NCBI GenBank assembly: GCA_018436095.1
Contig: JAHDMJ010000018.1
Coordinates: 124,001-188,000, forward strand
Length of the DNA: 64,000 nt
Direction: 5' to 3'
From: Clostridia bacterium
Lineage (GTDB): Bacteria > Bacillota > Peptococcia > DRI-13 > UBA5745
Position numbers and translations under genes: made by a program. The notes under the pieces are model-generated. The model saw only the letters and a list, made by a program, of their open reading frames with translations. It ran no database searches and had not been told where the DNA came from. This document shows positions 514-30,612 of the stretch, piece by piece; the first letter of the stretch is position 1; every line of letters begins with the position of its first letter.

Positions 514-704
514 GTAATTGTATAATACCGCACTGATATAAAGAAGAAAGAGGCGTTTGTGGTCATTGTCCGATAAGGAATAGTCATTGCATAAGAATCA
601 AAAAGACGATTTTTAATCGTTTATTTGTTGTGCAATGATGTTCCTGTTTTGGCGATGACCTTTTTATTTTGCCGATCATTTCAAATACTTATGAGGTGCG
701 AACA

Positions 705-1820
705 ATGTTAAATCAATTAATCCGCTACGGCGCAAGCCAACGCTATTTAGAAGAAGCTGTTCTTTATCCCGGCTGGTCTCTGGCAAGGGTAATTTCACAA
801 TATAAAGATCTATATAAAATTATTACGGAGGAAGGGGAGCGCCTGGCGGAAATCTCCGGCAAATTCCGCTACCGGTTGAAGGAATTAGCGGAATATCCCG
901 CCGTAGGCGACTTTGTCATGGCCGATCTTGGCGGCGGCAGCGGTAGCGGCACCGATAATGGCTCCGGCAGCAACAGCGGCGGAGGTAATGCTATTATCCA
1001 GCAGGTGCTAAGCCGGAAAAGCGTTTTTGAACGGGCCGCTGCCGGTACCGGCCAGCAAAGGCAGGTGGTCGCCGCAAATATAGACATCGTATTTATTTGC
1101 ATGGCCTTAAATAACAACTACAACCTGAGCCGCCTGGAACGTTATCTGGCGGTGGCCTGGAACAGCGGCGCCACTCCCGTAGTAGTGCTGACAAAGGCCG
1201 ACCTCTGCGAAAATTTAAGCGGTATTACTTTGGAAGTGTCCCAGGTTGCCGCCGGCGCCGATGTAATCGTTACCTCGGGCTATGACCAGGCTTCCTGCCA
1301 TAAACTGCTGCCCTATTTGCAGCCGGGACTTACCGCATCCTTTATTGGCTCTTCCGGCGTAGGCAAATCCACGCTGATCAATGAGCTGGCAGGAGAAAAG
1401 CTTTTGGACGTAGGGGCTATCGGTTGGGAGGATAAGGGACGGCACACCACCACCCGCAGAGAGCTGCTGGTTTTGCCTCAAGGCGGCATTGTTATCGATA
1501 CCCCGGGCATGCGGGAGCTGGGCGTGGAGGCCGTGGATTTATCCAGATCCTTTGCCGATATAGACGAATTAATCAGCCAATGCCGCTTTCGGGATTGCAG
1601 CCATACGGAGGAGCCGGGCTGCGCTGTCCGCCGGGCTTTGGAATCGGGGGAGCTGGATAGCCGGCGTCTGGAAAGCTACCGTAAACTAAAAAAAGAAGCC
1701 AAGTATGACGGACTTTCCTCTAGGCAGATCGAAGCGGAAAAGATCAACACAATGTTTGGCGGAATGGCTGAGATGAAAAAAATGAAGGACTTTAGCCGGA
1801 AAAAGAACAAAGGAAGATAG
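705..1820 (+). CDS. rsgA: Ribosome small subunit-dependent GTPase A
   Basis: RsgA is a circularly permuted GTPase that assists late 30S subunit maturation. The motif order is diagnostic: G4 LTKAD (about 162-166) precedes the P-loop GSSGVGKST (215-223), then DTPGM (265-269), then a C-terminal zinc site of Cys293, Cys298, His300 and Cys306. The ATG at 705 is preferred over an in-frame TTG at 669 because GAGGTG sits 8 bases before it. The N-terminal OB domain is interrupted at about residues 76-95 by a Gly/Ser/Asn-rich stretch that I do not know from the family; similar inserts occur elsewhere in this window. The gene is monocistronic. Confidence 0.93.
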   Translation: MLNQLIRYGASQRYLEEAVLYPGWSLARVISQYKDLYKIITEEGERLAEISGKFRYRLKELAEYPAVGDFVMADLGGGSGSGTDNGSGSNSGGGNAIIQQVLSRKSVFERAAAGTGQQRQVVAANIDIVFICMALNNNYNLSRLERYLAVAWNSGATPVVVLTKADLCENLSGITLEVSQVAAGADVIVTSGYDQASCHKLLPYLQPGLTASFIGSSGVGKSTLINELAGEKLLDVGAIGWEDKGRHTTTRRELLVLPQGGIVIDTPGMRELGVEAVDLSRSFADIDELISQCRFRDCSHTEEPGCAVRRALESGELDSRRLESYRKLKKEAKYDGLSSRQIEAEKINTMFGGMAEMKKMKDFSRKKNKGR

Positions 1821-3203: not shown

Positions 3204-4202
3204 TTACAGCGATGCAATCAATTCCTCTATGATATTTGGGTCAGGGGTCTTGCCGGTAAAATGCTCAAAGGACAAGGCGGCTTGGCAGACCAGATGAGCC
3301 AGGCCGTTCATGACGGCAAAGCCCTTTGCTTTGGCCTGGCGCAGCAAAAAGGTTTCCCGGGGGGCGTAAATTAAATCATAGACTAAAGCGCCGGGCTGAA
3401 GGATATCAAGAAAGGACAAATCGCTAAAATCGTTGCCGCTTTCGTTTTGGGTTCCTGAAGGGGATGTGCCCTCCATACCTAAAGGCGTAGCGTTGATCAG
3501 CAAATTACAGCCTGCGGTTTTGATGGTATTGCCGATTTCTGACCAGGGGCAATAAACTGCGCCTTCTAAAGGCGGGGCGGTTGCCCACCGGCGGCAGGCC
3601 AACCGGACTTGGGCTCCTTGTTGCAGCAGAGCCATAGCCACAGCCCTGGCAGCGCCGCCGGCGCCCAGAATCAGGGCATTGGTTTTTGCCGCCTCAAGAC
3701 CGGCGGAGGCCAGAGAGAGAAGGAAGCCTTGACCGTCGGTATTGTGGCCGCTAAACTTGCCGTTTTGATAAACGACGGTGTTGACGGCGCCGTACAAATC
3801 GGCGCTGGGGGCTATTTCATCCAAGTGAGGCAGGATGAGGCTTTTCAAAGGCATGGTGACATTGAACCCCGCCATATTTAAGGTGCGGGCCGCCGCCATG
3901 AAATCCGAAAGGGTTTCAGGAGTAACGTCAAAAGCTAAATAAGCATAGGGTAGATTTAAGGAGTCCGCAAATCGGTTATGAATCTGGGGGGAGAGGCTGT
4001 GATTGACGGGATGGCCGATTACGGCCAGGAGCTTGGTGGCGCCGGTGATGCTGCCGCTACCGCTGCTACCGCCGCTACCGCTGCTACCGCCGCTACCGCT
4101 GCTACCGCCGCTACCGCTGCTGCCGCTGCTGCTACCGCCGCTGCCGCTACCGCTGCTACCGCCGCTGCTACCGCTGCTGCTGCCGGTGATGCCGCCCCTC
4201 AT
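3204..4202 (-). CDS. aroE: Shikimate dehydrogenase with Gly/Ser-rich N-terminal extension
   Basis: AroE reduces 3-dehydroshikimate to shikimate with NADPH. Hallmarks are HSLSPQIHN (shikimate-binding serines), NVTMPLK with the catalytic Lys at about 120, HNTDG with Asp156, and the nucleotide loop GAGGAA at about 180-185. The ATG at 4202 overlaps the aroQ stop as ATGA, implying translational coupling; a start at 4256 is possible in frame but would overlap aroQ by 58 bases. Residues 7-52 are almost pure Gly/Ser, encoded by an 18-bp tandem repeat, and precede a normal-length enzyme starting near KLLAVIGHP. It is the last gene of the aromatic operon. Confidence 0.93.
   Translation of the reverse strand: MRGGITGSSSGSSGGSSGSGSGGSSSGSSGSGGSSGSGGSSGSGGSSGSGSITGATKLLAVIGHPVNHSLSPQIHNRFADSLNLPYAYLAFDVTPETLSDFMAAARTLNMAGFNVTMPLKSLILPHLDEIAPSADLYGAVNTVVYQNGKFSGHNTDGQGFLLSLASAGLEAAKTNALILGAGGAARAVAMALLQQGAQVRLACRRWATAPPLEGAVYCPWSEIGNTIKTAGCNLLINATPLGMEGTSPSGTQNESGNDFSDLSFLDILQPGALVYDLIYAPRETFLLRQAKAKGFAVMNGLAHLVCQAALSFEHFTGKTPDPNIIEELIASL
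4050..4182. repeat. 18-bp coding minisatellite in aroE 5' end
   Basis: At least three perfect copies of GCTACCGCTGCTACCGCC lie head to tail at 4056-4109, followed by degenerate units to about 4182. On the minus strand it encodes the Gly/Ser tract of AroE. Units are multiples of 3, so copy-number change would keep frame. Confidence 0.9.
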
Positions 4203-4792
4203 CGGCTGCCGCCCTCGGCAACGGAAGTTTTGCCCACCGCCTGACCGGCCGCCCAATATTGGGCCAGATAATCCATGGCAGCCAGATAGCCCTGGAAGCC
4301 TAAGCCGCTGATTTGCCCCAGGCAGGCGGCGGCGGTTACCGAATGGCGCCGAAATTCTTCTCTGGCGGCAATGTTGGAAAGATGGACCTCCAGGGCAGGC
4401 AGGCCCACGCCTTTAATAGCATCGAATATAGCATAGCTGTAATGAGTATAGGCGCCGGGATTGATGATTAGGCCGTCATACTTGCCGGCAGCCTGGTGAA
4501 TGGCGTCGATAATCTCTCCCTCGTGGTTGCTTTGAAAGACAGCAGCCTCCAGACCTTTCCGTGCTGCCTGCTCTTTGATCAGGTCCACTAAATCCTCGTA
4601 AGTTTGCCGGCCATATACCTCCGGTTCCCGCCGGCCCAGCAGATTGAGGTTAGGCCCGTTGATCACCAGCAGCCTCAGGACAGCGCCGTCAGCGCCGTCA
4701 GAGCCGTCAGTGCCGCCTGCCACAGTCCTGTGGGCCAGACCTTCCGCAGCCATCGTATCTCCCTCGTTGCCCGGGTCTTTAGTATATCTCAT
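4199..4792 (-). CDS. aroQ: 3-dehydroquinate dehydratase, type II
   Basis: This enzyme dehydrates 3-dehydroquinate to 3-dehydroshikimate. The type II core is clear: LLVINGPNLNLLGRREPEVYG with the catalytic Tyr, FQSNHEGEIIDAIH, IINPGAYTHYS and VHLSNIAAREEFR. ATG 4792 is chosen because AAAGGAGG lies about 9 bases upstream; an in-frame ATG at 4753 (after GAGGGAG) is an alternative. At 197 residues it is longer than the usual ~145-150, with a Gly/Asp-rich N-terminal extension and a C-terminal extension ending in the aroE overlap. It is coupled to aroE and follows aroK by 50 bases. Confidence 0.93.
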   Translation of the reverse strand: MRYTKDPGNEGDTMAAEGLAHRTVAGGTDGSDGADGAVLRLLVINGPNLNLLGRREPEVYGRQTYEDLVDLIKEQAARKGLEAAVFQSNHEGEIIDAIHQAAGKYDGLIINPGAYTHYSYAIFDAIKGVGLPALEVHLSNIAAREEFRRHSVTAAACLGQISGLGFQGYLAAMDYLAQYWAAGQAVGKTSVAEGGSR

Positions 4793-4842
4793 GACTTCGA
4801 TACCTCCTTTGCCTCCAATACCATACATGCTATCCCCGCTTC

Positions 4843-5400
4843 CTATATTTTCAATGCAGCCAATACTTCCTTCACCGCTTCTTCAATGGAACCTTCATTA
4901 TCCACCCTAAAATCATACAGGTCTTCGTAAAGCTGCCGCCGCTGCTCATAAAGAGCTTGCAAAGCCGCCAGGGTTTCCGCAGGGGCTTTGCCTGACAGCA
5001 AAGGCCGGGAATCCGTTGGCAATGTGGCTATAATGCTTTCAACCCTGCGGCTTAGATAGATGACGACGGCATTTTCCTTAATGAGGCTGCCGTTATGCAG
5101 TATGGCGCCGCCGCCCAGGGCAATCACCGCCGGCCCTTTGGCCAGCAGGCCGGCGATGCACCGGCTTTCCAAGCAGCGAAAATACTCCTCGCCTTTTTCC
5201 GCAAAAATCCGGGGAATGCTCATTCCCGATTGGGCCTCAATCTCCAGATCGCTGTCGTACCAGGCTTGACCCAGGGCTGCGGCAACCTTTTTGGAAACAG
5301 TGGTTTTACCGCAGCCGGGCAAGCCGATAAAAGCAATATTTTTCATGGGCTCAATGTCATTTTTCATAGGCTTAAGGCCTGCCGGTACGCAATTTGCCAT
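4843..5400 (-). CDS. aroK: Shikimate kinase
   Basis: AroK phosphorylates shikimate at the 3-hydroxyl using ATP. Visible motifs are the Walker A loop GLPGCGKTT, the shikimate-binding DSD, FAEKGEEYFR, the ALGGGA loop and the lid segment DSRPLL. The first ATG at 5400 lies 9 bases after the pheA stop but has a weak ribosome binding site; in-frame ATGs at 5367 and 5346 are possible, and 5346 (MKNIAFIGLPG) gives the usual kinase N-terminus. Cytoplasmic, fifth from the end of the operon order. Confidence 0.93.
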   Translation of the reverse strand: MANCVPAGLKPMKNDIEPMKNIAFIGLPGCGKTTVSKKVAAALGQAWYDSDLEIEAQSGMSIPRIFAEKGEEYFRCLESRCIAGLLAKGPAVIALGGGAILHNGSLIKENAVVIYLSRRVESIIATLPTDSRPLLSGKAPAETLAALQALYEQRRQLYEDLYDFRVDNEGSIEEAVKEVLAALKI

Positions 5401-5409
5401 AAAAGCCCA

Positions 5410-6543
5410 TCATTCTTCCGTGGTGGTGGAATAGCAGCCTAAAACCTCGAAATAGTCGCATTGAGTGGCGGCCTGGCTCAAGGCATCCCGGGTGGTTGCC
5501 GAAAGGATGTTTGCCTGCAGGTCGGCAAAGAAGCGGTAACGGTCCTGGCTGACGGGCCGGGATTCGATTCTGGTCAGATTGATGCCGGCCAGCATGAAGC
5601 TTTCCAAAACAGCGCAGAGGGCGCCGCTTTTATGGGCGGTGGAGAAAGTAACGCTGGTCATGCCGCAGCTTTCATCGTAGATAGGCTGGCCGGCGATGAC
5701 AATGAACCGGGTTTTGTTGCTGGCGGTGTCCATGATATCGGGAACCAGCACCTTCAATCCGTAGGCTGCCGCCGCCTGACGGGAACCGATAGCCGCATAT
5801 TTAGGGCTGTTTTTCTCCGCTACCATCTGAGCGGCTACGGCAGTATTGCGGCAGGCCGTCAGGTCCCAGTTCTTGCCCTTAAGGAAACGGCGGCATTGGC
5901 CAAAGCCCTCGGGATGAGAGAAGACTTCCCGGATGTCGGCCAGCTCCGTGTCTTGAGTGGTCAGCAGACACTGGGCAATGGTAATCCAGACCTCGCCCAC
6001 AATATAGCAGGAATGCTTTTTTAGCAAATCGTAAACTTCGCCGATGGCGCCGGTTTGAGAGTTTTCAATAGGCAAAACACCGTAGTCCGCTTCTCCTGAT
6101 TTTACCACATTGAAAACATCTTCAAAATACTCGTGCTGGCAAAGTTCGGCTTGAGGGAACAGGCGGGCGGCTCCCTGCTGGCTCCAGGCTCCCGTAACCC
6201 CCTGATAGGCTACTTTAATGTTTTCCGTCTTTTTCTCGGCAGAAGCAGGGAAATCCACGGGGCTAGCCATACCCATGTCCTTCGTTTGCTTCATCTTTGA
6301 CAAAGCCATTAAGGTTCTCATGAGGGAGATCGTTTCGGCTTTCAGCTCTTCATCGGTGACGGCCAAAGCCCTTTCGATAACCTGCTGCTCCCTGTCTTTA
6401 TCGAGAATAGCCATATTGCCTGCCGTTTTTATACGGCCGATTTCTTTGATGGAATTCATCCTTTTGCCGAAAAGGGCTACCAGCTCCTGATCCACACTGT
6501 CGATTTCCCGGCGCAGAACCTCTAATTTTTCTTTGTTATTCAT
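5410..6543 (-). CDS. pheA: Bifunctional chorismate mutase / prephenate dehydratase (P-protein)
   Basis: The protein converts chorismate to prephenate and then to phenylpyruvate, the committed route to phenylalanine. An AroQ-type chorismate mutase domain spans residues 1-90, a prephenate dehydratase domain about 108-285 with the catalytic TRF motif at 278-280, and a C-terminal ACT domain about 295-372 with GAL (307-309) and ESRP (327-330), the residues known to bind inhibitory phenylalanine in this family. The fused CM-PDT layout is the E. coli type, not the separate genes of B. subtilis. The start at 6543 follows AGAAAGGATG. Confidence 0.95.
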   Translation of the reverse strand: MNNKEKLEVLRREIDSVDQELVALFGKRMNSIKEIGRIKTAGNMAILDKDREQQVIERALAVTDEELKAETISLMRTLMALSKMKQTKDMGMASPVDFPASAEKKTENIKVAYQGVTGAWSQQGAARLFPQAELCQHEYFEDVFNVVKSGEADYGVLPIENSQTGAIGEVYDLLKKHSCYIVGEVWITIAQCLLTTQDTELADIREVFSHPEGFGQCRRFLKGKNWDLTACRNTAVAAQMVAEKNSPKYAAIGSRQAAAAYGLKVLVPDIMDTASNKTRFIVIAGQPIYDESCGMTSVTFSTAHKSGALCAVLESFMLAGINLTRIESRPVSQDRYRFFADLQANILSATTRDALSQAATQCDYFEVLGCYSTTTEE

Positions 6544-6576: not shown

Positions 6577-7581
6577 TTAAGCAATGATCTCCCGGATCTT
6601 TCTTACTTTATCCATAATACGGTGGAAAACCTGGGGCGTTACGGACTGGGCGCCATCGCAGAGGGCGGCCTCGGGATGGTTGTGAACTTCGATGATCAGG
6701 CCGTCGGCTCCCGCCGCTACGGCTGCCAAAGCCATGGGCTCTACCAGATGCCAATAGCCTGTGGCATGGGAGGGATCGATGATCACCGGCAGATGGGTTT
6801 TGGCGTGGAGCACCGGTACTGCCGACAGGTCCAGCGTATTTCTGGTGGCCGTTTCAAAGGTGCGGATACCCCGTTCGCAGAGAATAACTTCTTGAGAGCC
6901 GCCGGCCATGACGTATTCCGCTGCCATCAGCAATTCGTCGATGGTGGAGGAGAGACCCCGCTTCAATAATACCGGCTTGCCTAAGGAGCCTACCTGGGAG
7001 AGCAGGGTGAAGTTCTGCATGTTGCGGGCGCCGATTTGGATAATGTCCACATCCTCGGCGAAGGCGTCCAGGTATTCCGGCGACATGATTTCCGTGACGA
7101 TGGGCAGCCCTGTTTTTTCCCTGGCGATCTTTAAAAGCTCCAGGCCGTCTAAGCCCAGGCCTTTGAAGGCGTAGGGAGAAGTTCTGGGCTTAAAGGCGCC
7201 TCCCCGCATGAAACCGGCTCCGGACATTTTTACATCCCGGGCAATGGACAGAATCTGCTCTTCGCTTTCTACGGAGCAAGGCCCGGCAATGACCGTAAAC
7301 TGGCCGCCGCCAATTTTGCGGCCGCAGATATCAAAAGTGCTGTCGGCAGGGTGAAACTTGCGTCCAGCCAGCTTATAAGGCTCTTTTACCCGCAGTACCC
7401 GCTCCACGCAGGGAAAGCGGAGAATAGTGTCCTCAGATATGCTGGAGGTATCGCCGGCCATGCCGATCATGCTGGTGGGTTCCCCCAGAATATTTTGGAC
7501 GATGACGCCTTTGCTCATCAGCAATTTTTCGATGGGTTCCCTTTCGGCCGGTTCCGTACCGGGTTTGAGAATAATGATCAT
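6577..7581 (-). CDS. aroF: 3-deoxy-7-phosphoheptulonate synthase (DAHP synthase, type I beta)
   Basis: This enzyme condenses PEP with erythrose 4-phosphate, the first step of the shikimate pathway. An N-terminal ferredoxin-like domain (about 1-70) precedes the TIM barrel with [40 protein letters not shown] and DPSHATG, as in the Thermotoga-type enzymes that carry an ACT-like regulatory domain. The start at 7581 follows AAAGAGGAG. The gene lies between aroC and pheA with short gaps. Confidence 0.94.
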
Positions 7582-7632: not shown

Positions 7633-8697
7633 TTAATAAGTATCGCTCATTAAAAGATCCAGCAGGCAAAGGGCCAGAGCGCCCTGGGCCACCGGCAAAG
7701 CTCTTGGTACGATGCAGGGATCGTGGCGGCCGCCGAAGGAAGTTTCCGTGGTTTCCATCTTTACGATATCCACCGTGGTTTGCTTTTTATGAATAGTGGG
7801 TGTGGGTTTGACGGCCAGGCGGACAACCAGAGGATTGCCGTTGGTGATGCCGCCGTTGATGCCGCCGTTGTGGTTGCTTTTCAGCCTGATGCGGTCACCG
7901 CTGACTTCCAGCTGGTCATTGGCTCCATAACCTGTCATTGTTGTCAAGTTGAAGCCGTCGCCAAATTCGATGCCTTTAATGCCAGGGATAGAAAACATCA
8001 TGGAAGCGATGACGCTTTCCGCAGAATCGAAGAAGGGTTCGCCCAAACCTGCCGGCAAGTTCCAGGCGGCACATTCGATGATGCCTCCCAGGGAATCGCC
8101 GTCGGCTTTGGCCTGCAAAATAGCCTCTTTCATCCTGGCGCCTGCGGCATCGTCGAATACGGGGAAGGCTTTTTCAGCCAGTTTCGCCATTTCTTCCGCC
8201 CCGCCCGGGCTGTCGGCTATGTTATAGATGCTGTAAATCCTGCCGCCAAGGCTGATGCCCCGGCTTTCCAGAATTTGCTGGGCAATAGCGCCGGCAAAAA
8301 CCAGGCAGGCGGTAAGCCGGCCGGAAAAATGGCCGCCTCCCCGGTAATCGTTGAAGCCCTTGTATTTGATCCAGGCGGTGTAATCCGCATGGCCGGGCCG
8401 TAAAAGGTGAGGGGAGTAATCCCGGGAGCGGGTATCCTGATTGCGGATAATAGCGCAAAGGGGAGCGCCGCTGGTGTTGTCCCCCATCATACCTGAGAGG
8501 ATTTCCCATTGGTCTTTCTCCTGGCGGGGGGTGGAGATATCCCCGGAGCCCGGAGCCCGGCGGGCCATAGCGGCTGCCACTTTGGACCAATCAATGGCAA
8601 AGCCGGGAGGCAACCCGCCTATCGTAACGCCGATGGCCGGACCGTGGGATTCCCCGAATATACTGATCTTGATCTTTTGCCCCCAAACATTGCTCAT
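7633..8697 (-). CDS. aroC: Chorismate synthase
   Basis: AroC forms chorismate from 5-enolpyruvylshikimate 3-phosphate with reduced FMN. Signatures are GESHGPAIGVTIGGLPPG at the N-terminus, RPGHADYT, the central RGGGHFSGR segment, and GGINGGITNGNPL and RHDPCIVPRA near the C-terminus. The start ATG overlaps the aroA stop (ATGA) and is preceded by AAGGAG, so the two are translationally coupled. Length of 354 residues is normal. Confidence 0.96.
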   Translation of the reverse strand: MSNVWGQKIKISIFGESHGPAIGVTIGGLPPGFAIDWSKVAAAMARRAPGSGDISTPRQEKDQWEILSGMMGDNTSGAPLCAIIRNQDTRSRDYSPHLLRPGHADYTAWIKYKGFNDYRGGGHFSGRLTACLVFAGAIAQQILESRGISLGGRIYSIYNIADSPGGAEEMAKLAEKAFPVFDDAAGARMKEAILQAKADGDSLGGIIECAAWNLPAGLGEPFFDSAESVIASMMFSIPGIKGIEFGDGFNLTTMTGYGANDQLEVSGDRIRLKSNHNGGINGGITNGNPLVVRLAVKPTPTIHKKQTTVDIVKMETTETSFGGRHDPCIVPRALPVAQGALALCLLDLLMSDTY

Positions 8698-9956
8698 AGC
8701 CGCTTCTCCTTTTCAAAGTCCTCCCAAAAGTGAGGGTAAGATTTGGCCACACAGCCGCTATCCTCAATATAAACCGGCTGCCGGCTTCTGACTGCCGCCA
8801 CCGCTCCCATCATGGCAATGCGGTGATCTCCCCGGCCGCTGATCCTGCCGCCGGCCAGGGACTCTACGCCGTCGATAACGAGAGCGTCGCCTTCAATAGT
8901 AATCCGGGCCCCCAGCTTATTCAGTTCTTCCGTAACGGTAGCCAGCCTGTCGCTTTCCTTAAGCCTTAACCGGGCGCCGTTTTCGATGCGGCTCCGGCCT
9001 TGACAAAAACAGAAAAAAGCAGCTAAAGGAGAAACTAAATCAGGGATTTCCGCTATATCCACAATCTGAGCCTTATATGGTAAAGCGCCGGCTTTGGCCG
9101 TTACGCCGCCTTGAGGGCTCCACTCTAAATCAACGCCGCTGGCCTGGAGGATATCCAGAATTGTTTTGTCGCCTTGTTTGGAATAAGGGGAGAGGCCCAG
9201 GCATTCGCAATGACTGCCTAAGGCGCTGGCCACCAGAAAAAAGGCGGCCTGGGAAAAATCTCCCTCTACGGTGAAGGGACGGCTTACGTATTGCTGTTTC
9301 CCGGGTATTTTGAACCGTTGGTAGTTCTCATGCCAAACCGTAACGCCGAAATAGGTCATCACATCGATGGTTAAATCCACATAGGCCTTGGATTGCAAGG
9401 GGCTGGTAACCACTATTTCGCTTTCTCCTGCCAGCAAGGGCAAAGCAAAGAGCAGGCCGGAAATAAATTGAGAGCTGACGTGGCCGGGAAGAGTATATAG
9501 GCCGGGCTTGAGGCTGCCCTCCAGCCGGAGGATATCATCCTTGTATTCAAGGGTTATGCCGTGACTGGCCAGGGCTTCAATATAAGGGCCCTGGGGCCGG
9601 GCTAAAAGCCTTCCCTGGCCGGTAAAGCCGGCCTGGCCCGTCAAGGCTGCCGCCAGGGGAATCAAAAAGCGGAGGGTGGAGCCGGATTCGCCGCAATCGA
9701 GAAGAGCGCCGGGCTGGCGGATCAGCTTCATGCAGCGGCTAGTGGCCTCGATATCCTGGGAGTAAACCAGGTTTTCGATGGGCCAGGGGCTTTGGGACAG
9801 GGCGGCGCAGATAACAGCCCGGTGGGATATGCTTTTTGAGGGGGGCATTTTAATGGAGCCCGCCGGGAAGCCGGAGACCTTCCTGGCTTCTTTGTTATGA
9901 TTGACGGTACTGCCGTTTTCAACTGGATTGCTCCATTTAATTTCTTTACTTTGCAT
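8694..9956 (-). CDS. aroA: 3-phosphoshikimate 1-carboxyvinyltransferase (EPSP synthase)
   Basis: AroA transfers the enolpyruvyl group of PEP to shikimate 3-phosphate. The translation shows KMPPSKSISHRA for the N-terminal substrate loop, GESGSTLRF at the site usually written GNAGTAxR, LKESDRL and GRGDHRIAMM. The start overlaps the aroB stop by 11 bases and follows AAAGGAGG. Residues 1-35 before KMPPSKS are longer than usual. Sensitivity to glyphosate cannot be judged from sequence alone. Confidence 0.95.
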   Translation of the reverse strand: MQSKEIKWSNPVENGSTVNHNKEARKVSGFPAGSIKMPPSKSISHRAVICAALSQSPWPIENLVYSQDIEATSRCMKLIRQPGALLDCGESGSTLRFLIPLAAALTGQAGFTGQGRLLARPQGPYIEALASHGITLEYKDDILRLEGSLKPGLYTLPGHVSSQFISGLLFALPLLAGESEIVVTSPLQSKAYVDLTIDVMTYFGVTVWHENYQRFKIPGKQQYVSRPFTVEGDFSQAAFFLVASALGSHCECLGLSPYSKQGDKTILDILQASGVDLEWSPQGGVTAKAGALPYKAQIVDIAEIPDLVSPLAAFFCFCQGRSRIENGARLRLKESDRLATVTEELNKLGARITIEGDALVIDGVESLAGGRISGRGDHRIAMMGAVAAVRSRQPVYIEDSGCVAKSYPHFWEDFEKEKRL

Positions 9957-11022
9957 GATCCGGCGCTGCCTCCTTTAGCAGGTGCATAAGCTCTGTTTGG
10001 CTGATGGCGTGAAGGATGGGGCTTCCCAGCTTCTTCAGCAGCACCAGAGTAATTTCACTGCTTTGATTTTTTTTATCTCCTGTCATCAGGGGAATAATAT
10101 GGCTCAACTTATCGGTCAAGGTATAGGTAAGTCCCGCTTTGTCCATGGTTTCCATCAGGGTTTTGGCAGTGCCCTTTTCGCTGAGGCCCAGCAGCTGGCC
10201 GGTCCGGGCGGCTAAAGCCATGCCGATGGCCACGGCTTCCCCATGATTGTACTTTTGATAATCATGATATTTCTCAATAGCGTGGCCGAAGGTATGGCCA
10301 AAGTTGAGAAACATTCTCTCGCCGGTGTCCCGCTCATCTTTTTCTACATAAGCAGCTTTTTGTTTGCAGCAAAGGTAAACGATTTGCTCCAGGTTTTGCC
10401 GGATAGCTTCGGGGCCGGCCAGCAGGGAGGGCAGGCTTCCTGCGCCGATAGCGGCATATTTGACTACCTCCGCCAGGCCCGACAGCCATTCCCGCCGGGG
10501 CAGGCTTGCCAAAAGACCCGTATCTGCCAATACCAAATTGGGCTGATAGAAGCTGCCTACCAGGTTTTTGCCTTCCTCCAGGTTAACGGCTACTTTGCCG
10601 CCCACGCTGGAATCCACCTGGGCTAAAAGGGTGGTAGGAATCTGAATAAAGGGCAGGCCCCGCATGTAGGTGGAGGCGGCAAAGCCTGCCAGATCTCCCG
10701 CAACACCGCCGCCGAAGGCAATAACGGCATGATTTCTTTTTAAACCATAGCGAAAAAATTCTTTATATAGCTTTTCCAGCATGGCCAGGGATTTACTGGT
10801 TTCCCCTTGAGGGATAATCGCGGCAGTGTAGGCCAGGCCTAAACCTTTGAGTATTTTTTCCAGATCAGGACCATGCAAAGACCAGACTTTTTCGTCGGAT
10901 ACCACCGCCACCGTACCGCCGGGACAATAGCTGGCAAGGAGCCCGGCCTGTTCTTGCAGCACATTTTCTCCGATCAGGATAGGATAGCTGCGCCCCGGCA
11001 GGTTAATATCAAGCTGTATCAT
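9946..11022 (-). CDS. aroB: 3-dehydroquinate synthase
   Basis: AroB converts DAHP to 3-dehydroquinate using NAD and a divalent metal. The family signature runs through GGGVAGDLAGFAASTYMRG, PTTLLAQVDSSVGGKVAVN and the metal-binding NFGHTFGHAIE. GGAGGA precedes the ATG at 11022. It is the first structural gene of the operon and lies downstream of a leader peptide and an intrinsic terminator, so expression of all eight genes probably depends on readthrough. Confidence 0.95.
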   Translation of the reverse strand: MIQLDINLPGRSYPILIGENVLQEQAGLLASYCPGGTVAVVSDEKVWSLHGPDLEKILKGLGLAYTAAIIPQGETSKSLAMLEKLYKEFFRYGLKRNHAVIAFGGGVAGDLAGFAASTYMRGLPFIQIPTTLLAQVDSSVGGKVAVNLEEGKNLVGSFYQPNLVLADTGLLASLPRREWLSGLAEVVKYAAIGAGSLPSLLAGPEAIRQNLEQIVYLCCKQKAAYVEKDERDTGERMFLNFGHTFGHAIEKYHDYQKYNHGEAVAIGMALAARTGQLLGLSEKGTAKTLMETMDKAGLTYTLTDKLSHIIPLMTGDKKNQSSEITLVLLKKLGSPILHAISQTELMHLLKEAAPDHAK

Positions 11023-11064: not shown

Positions 11065-11103
11065 AAAAAAGCGGCGGGATTCCTTTGCTGAATCCCACCG
11101 CTC
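11065..11103 (-). terminator. Attenuator terminator upstream of aroB
   Basis: On the minus strand GCGGTGGGATTC pairs with GAATCCCGCCGC across a 7-base loop and is followed by TTTTTTG. It lies between the aromatic leader peptide and aroB, about 45 bases before the aroB start, so it is placed to abort transcription of the operon. Confidence 0.85.
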
Positions 11104-11132
11104 AATGATCACGACATTTCATTTCAATCATA

Positions 11133-11249
11133 TCAGGACGACGACGATCCATATCCTTTATTCGTTTTTCCACACCAAAAATAGCCAAAGCTAAAGCTCT
11201 GGCTAAAGCTAAACAGGAATTCAGTTGTGGAGCAACGAAGGTCAGACAT
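11133..11249 (-). CDS. Aromatic-rich leader peptide of the aro-phe operon (38 aa)
   Basis: A 38-codon reading frame lies between the promoter and the attenuator terminator. Residues 11-25 read FLFSFSQSFSFGYFW: six Phe, one Tyr and one Trp in fifteen residues. AAGGCGG lies 9 bases before the ATG. This is the arrangement of classical ribosome-mediated attenuation leaders such as pheL, and pheA is in the operon. Within the Phe codons, GCCAGAGC and GCTTTGGC can pair, a candidate pause hairpin. The peptide itself probably has no other role. The assignment is inferred from composition and position. Confidence 0.75.
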   Translation of the reverse strand: MSDLRCSTTEFLFSFSQSFSFGYFWCGKTNKGYGSSSS

Positions 11250-11282
11250 AACGCAACCGCCTTAAATTTCTTATTTTTTAAT

Positions 11283-11311
11283 ATAGCACTCCATTTTTAG
11301 GTTGTCAATAA
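11283..11311 (-). promoter_or_regulatory. Promoter of the aro-phe operon
   Basis: TTGACA and TATATT are separated by 17 bases on the minus strand, about 35 bases upstream of the leader peptide ATG. It is the only near-consensus promoter seen upstream of the eight-gene operon. Confidence 0.75.
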
Positions 11312-30419: not shown

Positions 30420-30612
30420 CTGGACAGATGAAGCGCGCAGGAAAGTAACCATATCAGGTTTGCCGAAGGAGTAACACTCTCAGGTGTCCCTCAGGGGATG
30501 AAGACTGTGCGCGGATGTGACTCTGGAGAAGCTCGATTATGAGTGCCGAAGGTGCAACACGGAATGCAATTCCGTTAATCTCTCAGGCAAAAGGACAGAG
30601 GCGAAACCGTTC
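30420..30612 (+). ncRNA. Glycine riboswitch (tandem, first aptamer divergent)
   Basis: The second aptamer is textbook: CTGGAGAAG, GTGCCGAAGGTGCAAC, then CTCTCAGGCAAAAGGACAGA (30580-30599). The first aptamer is less canonical but keeps GCCGAAGGAGTAAC and CTCTCAGGTGTCCC, and is closed by GCGCGCA...TGTGCGCG arms. The pair precedes a terminator and an alanine/glycine:cation symporter, a known target class for this riboswitch. Confidence 0.92.

Follow-up and report, generated by a model that had tools for sequence, protein, structure and literature searches.

Leader-peptide attenuation is textbook knowledge in Proteobacteria. The amino-acid genes of Clostridia are generally assigned to T-boxes or to proteins, and the lineage is better known for its T-box switches. 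In E. coli, the pheL and trpL/hisL leaders consist of a promoter, a Shine-Dalgarno (SD) sequence, a short ORF rich in codons for the end product and a terminator, placed before biosynthetic genes, and the clostridial locus described here is built likewise. Within the Firmicutes, histidine leader peptides were described for hisS*/hisZ in bacilli (PMC2965389) and for his operons of the B. cereus group, Peptostreptococcaceae and Erysipelotrichales (PMC9413887). The passages of another report that deal with the uORFC-13-1 motif place it before aroF and give it only from Acholeplasma and from environmental sequences (24 representatives), and its authors propose Phe-dependent attenuation (PMC8632094).

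The window analysed here is a 64,000-nt stretch of the genome of a Clostridia bacterium (G000), in which a leader with a promoter of its own precedes aroB on the minus strand. Judging from the sequence, we consider it highly probable that this leader is a ribosome-mediated transcription attenuator of the pheL/trpL kind. The features of the locus and of the genes behind it are as follows:

11280..11308, minus strand: promoter TTGACA-17-TATATT with TG before the -10 element (extended -10), 11 of 12 consensus matches
11257..11263, minus strand: SD sequence AAGGCGG of the leader ORF, 7 nt 5' of the ATG (from the sequence); the same region is part of segment 1, pairing with the ORF end (fold GGCGGUU:GAUCGUC)
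11133..11249, minus strand, ATG at 11249: leader peptide ORF of 38 codons, MSDLRCSTTEFLFSFSQSFSFGYFWCGKTNKGYGSSSS* (from the sequence, a chance test and a profile)
11175..11219, minus strand: aromatic codon cluster, residues 11-25 (six Phe, one Tyr, one Trp), aromatic positions kept in relatives; presumed stall site
11216..11224, minus strand: alternative antiterminator strand CUGAAUUCC, 9 bp with GGGAUUCAG in the terminator (p 0.04)
11138..11151, minus strand: candidate segment 2, UGGAUCGUCGUCGU, the last ORF codons (from the fold; duplex -11 kcal/mol)
11065..11103, minus strand: intrinsic terminator (segments 3:4), 14-bp GC-rich stem and T run (from the fold and the sequence)
9946..11022, minus strand: aroB, 3-dehydroquinate synthase, the first structural gene (Pfam PF01761, PF24621)
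8694..9956, minus strand: aroA, EPSP synthase (PF00275)
7633..8697, minus strand: aroC, chorismate synthase (PF01264)
6577..7581, minus strand: aroF, DAHP synthase with a ferredoxin-like N-terminal domain (PF00793, PF18152)
5410..6543, minus strand: pheA, chorismate mutase-prephenate dehydratase (PF01817, PF00800)
3204..5400, minus strand: aroK, aroQ and aroE, shikimate kinase, type II dehydroquinase and shikimate dehydrogenase (PF01202, PF01220, PF08501)

A sequence-only reading of this DNA had described the promoter upstream of aroB and the 38-codon ORF with aromatic residues 11-25 and a ribosome site of its own; both are present as stated (11308-11280 and 11249-11133, respectively, minus strand), and the ORF translates as FLFSFSQSFSFGYFW. 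The terminator and its T run were found as well, but the stem, given as 12 bp, is 14 bp long counting G-U pairs (hairpin 11103-11069, dG -25.2 kcal/mol, z -6.9). The ribosome site and start of aroB lie about 45 nt past it. The aromatic leader ORF goes beyond chance, as judged by its rarity among window ORFs and in shuffled sequences: only 2 of 1027 short ORFs (12-80 aa, both window strands) have eight aromatics per 15 residues, the leader ORF alone of the two has a good SD (6/7), and 5000 dinucleotide shuffles of the leader gave one such ORF, with an SD in none. An alternative frame across the leader (KAVALCLTFVAPQLNS...KCRDH) appeared protein-like and was rejected, being without an SD and without a homologue beyond the genus.

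Pfam searches bore out the aro-phe operon behind the leader, with eight genes in the order aroB-aroA-aroC-aroF-pheA-aroK-aroQ-aroE, identical to that in the sister genome G004. The presence of pheA was likewise upheld; for the ACT domain ascribed to it, Pfam reported nothing at E<=1e-5, and a C-terminal ESRP-type sequence is visible by eye. The aroE product carries a long Gly/Ser-rich N-terminal extension (window ~4050-4256, minus strand), a repeat that is missing from the aroE of the sister genome. Elsewhere in the window, an RsgA-like GTPase with a Gly/Ser-rich insert (669-1820, plus strand) and a glycine riboswitch aptamer (RF00504, 58.5 bits; 30513-30608, plus strand) were observed.

The sister genome is the MAG Clostridia bacterium SM1-B15.1 (G004, contig JAHDPO010000007, locus L045). 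From the -35 element to the T run, the two genomes differ at 5 of 250 positions (98% identity); at four-fold sites of aroB, aroF and pheA, 32-39% of positions have changed. Sequence identity starts at the leader promoter and falls off right after the terminator, at the ribosome site of aroB. The five changes are located in the promoter spacer, just 5' of the ATG, in codon 25 (W25C), after the stop codon and in the terminator, where a G-U pair became A-U. There is no synonymous change in the 38 codons, and the peptide is the same in G004 apart from W25C. The leader, first described as rich in Phe, Tyr and Trp, therefore keeps its Phe and Tyr codons, but not Trp25, which is Cys in the sister species. 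As a yardstick, we used the seven orthologous T-box leaders that could be aligned over their full length between the two genomes; they are 78-96% identical, so constraint on the leader is no weaker than on structured attenuators already known. Alignment of the whole leader is possible with G004 only, and in so nearly identical a pair the covariation amounts to the one G-U to A-U change.

Neither a DNA search of 60 related genomes nor a search for the peptide within the order detected the leader outside the sister species. A wider family was found by scanning upstream of aro genes for an SD-led aromatic ORF followed by a terminator. The survey yielded about 30 leaders, spread over 27 genomes and 14 families; almost all stand immediately before aroF (DAHP synthase), and that of G005 is the least certain. 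The peptides include MEGMCRKLIAQVEFYFYYSYRSFYSFGFFCYPYSRLSVSKSL in G008 and MDKLIKITTEYFYYFFSSNFFGWAFCVGSE in G135, one that begins MEKIIRTININAENFNFFFSQGFFSVGFFCYKK... in G025, and those containing ...SAYFFFFSLGQFFGAGFF... in G028 and ...IEYVFTYFGWGYLYFSAGYFWYNEF... in G110. When fixed criteria (SD of at least 5/7, at least six aromatics in 12 residues, and a terminator) were applied to all genes alike, they matched upstream of 18 of 56 aroF genes, 1 of 51 aroB genes (that of the window), none of the other aro genes and none of 384 non-aro genes. Run over 249 genomes, a peptide profile built from 24 leaders matched 23, and all clear matches lie upstream of aroF or of the aroB of the window; the window leader, itself in the training set with 23 others, scored E 2.9e-8. 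The profile also found a leader outside the training set, MENIIRKGKTVQFNSFYFSYSLGYFYSAGYLCC... in G069, which has a promoter, an SD and a terminator just before aroF, as well as a 10-nt complement between ORF and terminator. The two weakest profile matches (E ~0.005) are unsupported, one of them (in G026) adjoining unrelated genes. Apart from the profile, the borderline hits L036 and L041 were discarded, as they lie within ORFs of unrelated genes, and the leader candidates L213, L232, L261 and L132 were left out of the count as too weak.

Within sub-families, aromatic positions were still aromatic in 81 of 88 comparisons, with F and Y interchanging, and other leader positions were identical in 154 of 193. 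Terminators of sub-families stay paired through two-sided changes (GGAGCCCCGUGGC..GCCGCGGGGCUC vs AGAGCCCCGUAGC..GCUGCGGGGCUU). The alignment of related leaders that had been proposed as a check thus shows aromatic codons, a terminator with compensatory changes and a place before aro genes, all kept. G008 has two aroF copies (L155, L156), each with a paralogous leader and with almost identical terminators; only one of the two copies heads the aro operon.

The genome of the window has a second leader, which is Tyr-rich (MRDFISAANYYYYAGFAYFMSKVSLRLADRDMRFMYC, NYYYYAGFAYF), has its own promoter and terminator, and stands before a second DAHP synthase gene (aroF2) followed by tyrA:

L151 (G000:C13:27000-33500), 2043-2156: Tyr leader, terminator just downstream

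This leader probably controls aroF2-tyrA; the copy in the sister genome has diverged, with compensatory changes in the terminator. Across the family, the Tyr/(Phe+Tyr) share of the cluster is 0-0.14 in four operons with pheA and without tyrA, and 0.33-0.71 in thirteen with tyrA beside aroF. The two groups do not overlap (Mann-Whitney U=0, p=0.0019, the p-value being indicative because the rows share ancestry). In G007/G008, where both pheA and tyrA are present, the Tyr share is 0.5. A Phe/Tyr share that tracks pheA/tyrA is the prediction of codon-specific attenuation, and not that of an aptamer or a housekeeping micropeptide.

To analyse RNA pairing, each leader was divided into a pre-cluster, a cluster and a post-cluster part, and each part was compared with shuffled sequences for its ability to form a continuous helix with the 5' arm and loop of the terminator. 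Over 18 leaders taken together, the post-cluster part is complementary to the 5' half of the terminator beyond shuffles (Fisher p 4.6e-8), and neither the cluster (p 0.72) nor the pre-cluster part (p 0.78) shows an excess of such complementarity. Examples of these helices are CUAAUGAGC:GCUCAUUAG in G205, UUUGCUGC:GCAGCAAA in G106 and UCAAUGAG:CUCAUUGA in G007/G008. The post-cluster segments usually fall within the final 5-16 codons of the ORF or directly behind its stop, a position that a ribosome which has reached the stop codon could mask. Pairing between pre-cluster and post-cluster parts beats shuffles in 11 of 25 leaders including that of the window (p<=0.025), which supplies segment 1:2. 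Across the family, the predicted pairing follows the trp/phe attenuators in its 1:2, 2:3, 3:4 order, and segments 1 and 2 flank the aromatic codons.

The window leader has strong helices 1:2, formed by GGAUAUGGAUCGUC and the SD/start region, and 3:4. Segment 2 (11138..11151) can pair with segment 1 or with the 5' arm of the terminator at 11089-11101, but the latter helix, UGGAUC-g-UCGUCGU:GCGGUGGGAUUCA, is weak, GU-rich and not significant against shuffles (p 0.5). The antiterminator suggested earlier, CTGAAT with ATTCAG, fared poorly: the pairing CUGAAUUCC:GGGAUUCAG (9 bp) is marginal, it lies 5' of the Phe codons and would need to form behind the ribosome, and it is not the segment used by the rest of the family. 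In full-length window RNA, the terminator was thermodynamically favoured at every ribosome position tried; antitermination would therefore have to be kinetic, and ribosome-masked thermodynamic folding of the window alone was set aside as uninformative because the terminator always wins. Masked folding across the family gave a 5'-arm pairing of 0.68 with the ribosome stalled vs 0.21 with the ribosome at the stop, a difference that arises in part by construction, from the geometry and from the use of the highest value among codons.

From the elements observed directly (promoter, SD, ORF, Phe run, terminator, conservation, wider family and the match of composition to operon), we propose that transcription begins at the leader promoter and that the Phe-rich leader is translated by a ribosome following the RNA polymerase. 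With ample Phe-tRNA(Phe), this ribosome would reach the stop codon and sit on the last part of the ORF, and the terminator would form ahead of aroB. With too little charged Phe-tRNA, it would stall on the Phe codons; the segment beyond them would be left free to form a helix with the terminator's 5' half, and transcription would continue into the eight aro-pheA genes. Stalling, its direction and the exact antiterminator of the window are predicted parts of this scheme, and the antiterminator step in the window leader is suggested by the pairing found across the family.

The conservation of the leader could also be read as that of a structured RNA that senses a metabolite or a protein, either like a riboswitch or as the target of a protein such as TRAP, in which the Phe-rich ORF is incidental. 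The leader folds as a long hairpin (z -4.0 for the 5' part), its identity between the two genomes equals or exceeds that of the T-box leaders, and its codons lack synonymous changes, all of which would suit such an RNA. However, no match was found in Rfam for the window leader at gathering or permissive thresholds (cmscan; no T-box and nothing relevant), and no catalogued Rfam amino-acid leader family matches it or 20 related loci at the gathering threshold. Moreover, its relatives share the aromatic ORF and not a common fold, and the exchange of Phe for Tyr follows operon content, which is unexpected of an aptamer; we regard this explanation as quite improbable. The abrupt limits of conservation, at the promoter and just past the terminator, would also fit a small gene in its own right, coding for a functional micropeptide or an sRNA and ended by its own terminator; expression of aroB would then depend on leaky readthrough that no amino acid controls. 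We find this very improbable, since the distance from terminator to aroB leaves no room for a second promoter, and members of the family stand before aro genes only, with a composition that follows pheA/tyrA.

T-boxes are common in the lineage, and a tRNA-sensing leader of this type that has lost its recognisable features could be imagined at the locus. The T-box model (RF00230) found 12 elements in the genome of the window, none of them at the leader, which also lacks GGTGGNACCGCG and has an SD-led ORF; we judge a degenerate T-box to be extremely improbable, and the claim that none is present held in the searches with both the T-box model and permissive Rfam thresholds. The genes just 3' of the 12 elements include trpE, pheS, thrS and trp biosynthesis genes (pheS, thrS and trp genes assigned by reading translations). 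The genome with the Phe leader thus also uses T-boxes, on trp genes and pheS, and since none lies at the leader, other aromatic genes are under T-boxes and something else acts at aroB. A T-box-like GGGTGGNACCGCG occurs in 31 of 143 surveyed aroF upstream regions (L121-L286), and leader peptides precede the aroF genes most similar to that of the window. Because those 31 regions carry the T-box-like sequence instead, leader peptides and T-boxes appear to replace each other before aroF. The pheL/trpL reading, as opposed to a T-box, is favoured by the kept aromatic codons, the terminator, the position before aro genes and the Phe/Tyr share in relation to pheA/tyrA.

An ACAACTGAAT-like RNA, encoding TTE[YF], occurs just before the aromatic cluster in L202-L216, L224, L225, L125-L129, L135, L136, L155 and L301, and the peptides of the same loci (L202-L216 etc.) end in FSxG[FY]F[CW], which is beyond the need of codon counting alone. 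The proposed core is approximately [T]TE[YF]xxYFxFSxxxFFSxG[FY]F[CW], following the ACAACTGAAT-like RNA. It is conceivable, though we lean against it, that the clostridial Phe/Tyr leaders are a single family by descent, share a conserved core of both peptide and RNA, and were inherited together with one clade of DAHP synthase. If so, the Phe:Tyr ratio of the leader would be an evolvable dial for the control that each amino acid exerts on the shared pathway.

What is surprising about these leaders is how widely the family is spread, that it occurs alongside T-boxes, and that Phe and Tyr leaders are split inside one genome. As we read them, they are Phe- and Tyr-specific leader-peptide attenuators; they are present in no fewer than 14 families of the phylum, and the genome of the window has them together with T-boxes for trp genes and pheS. 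The tracking of operon content by leader composition provides a natural comparison, in which an exchange of Phe and Tyr codons would serve as a test of codon-specific attenuation. The family also allows one to ask how leader peptides and T-boxes substitute for each other before aroF.

Among the known systems, the his leaders of Firmicutes also represent leader-peptide attenuation where T-boxes are the rule (PMC2965389, PMC9413887), but they respond to histidine and not Phe/Tyr, and belong to other lineages and other sequences. The uORFC-13-1 motif resembles the window leader in that a candidate uORF, containing one or more Phe codons, and a terminator precede aroF; it differs, by description only, in that Phe is encoded by a U-run and in that the passages on the motif mention no Tyr version and no pheA/tyrA correlation (PMC8632094). 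T-boxes of aromatic genes in Firmicutes have the same regulatory output and are present upstream of other surveyed aroF genes, but they sense uncharged tRNA directly, have no ORF and are absent from the window locus. The open-access literature, to which the search was confined, yielded no description of Phe/Tyr leaders in clostridial aro operons, and the family is absent from Rfam 15; the mechanism is already known, and the clostridial leader family is, on the strength of that literature, apparently new within it. Compared with E. coli pheL and trpL/hisL, to which no sequence relation was found, the window leader is clostridial, precedes eight shikimate-pheA genes and matches no Rfam leader, but the 1:2, 2:3 and 3:4 complementarity is common to the E. 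coli leaders and the family described here.
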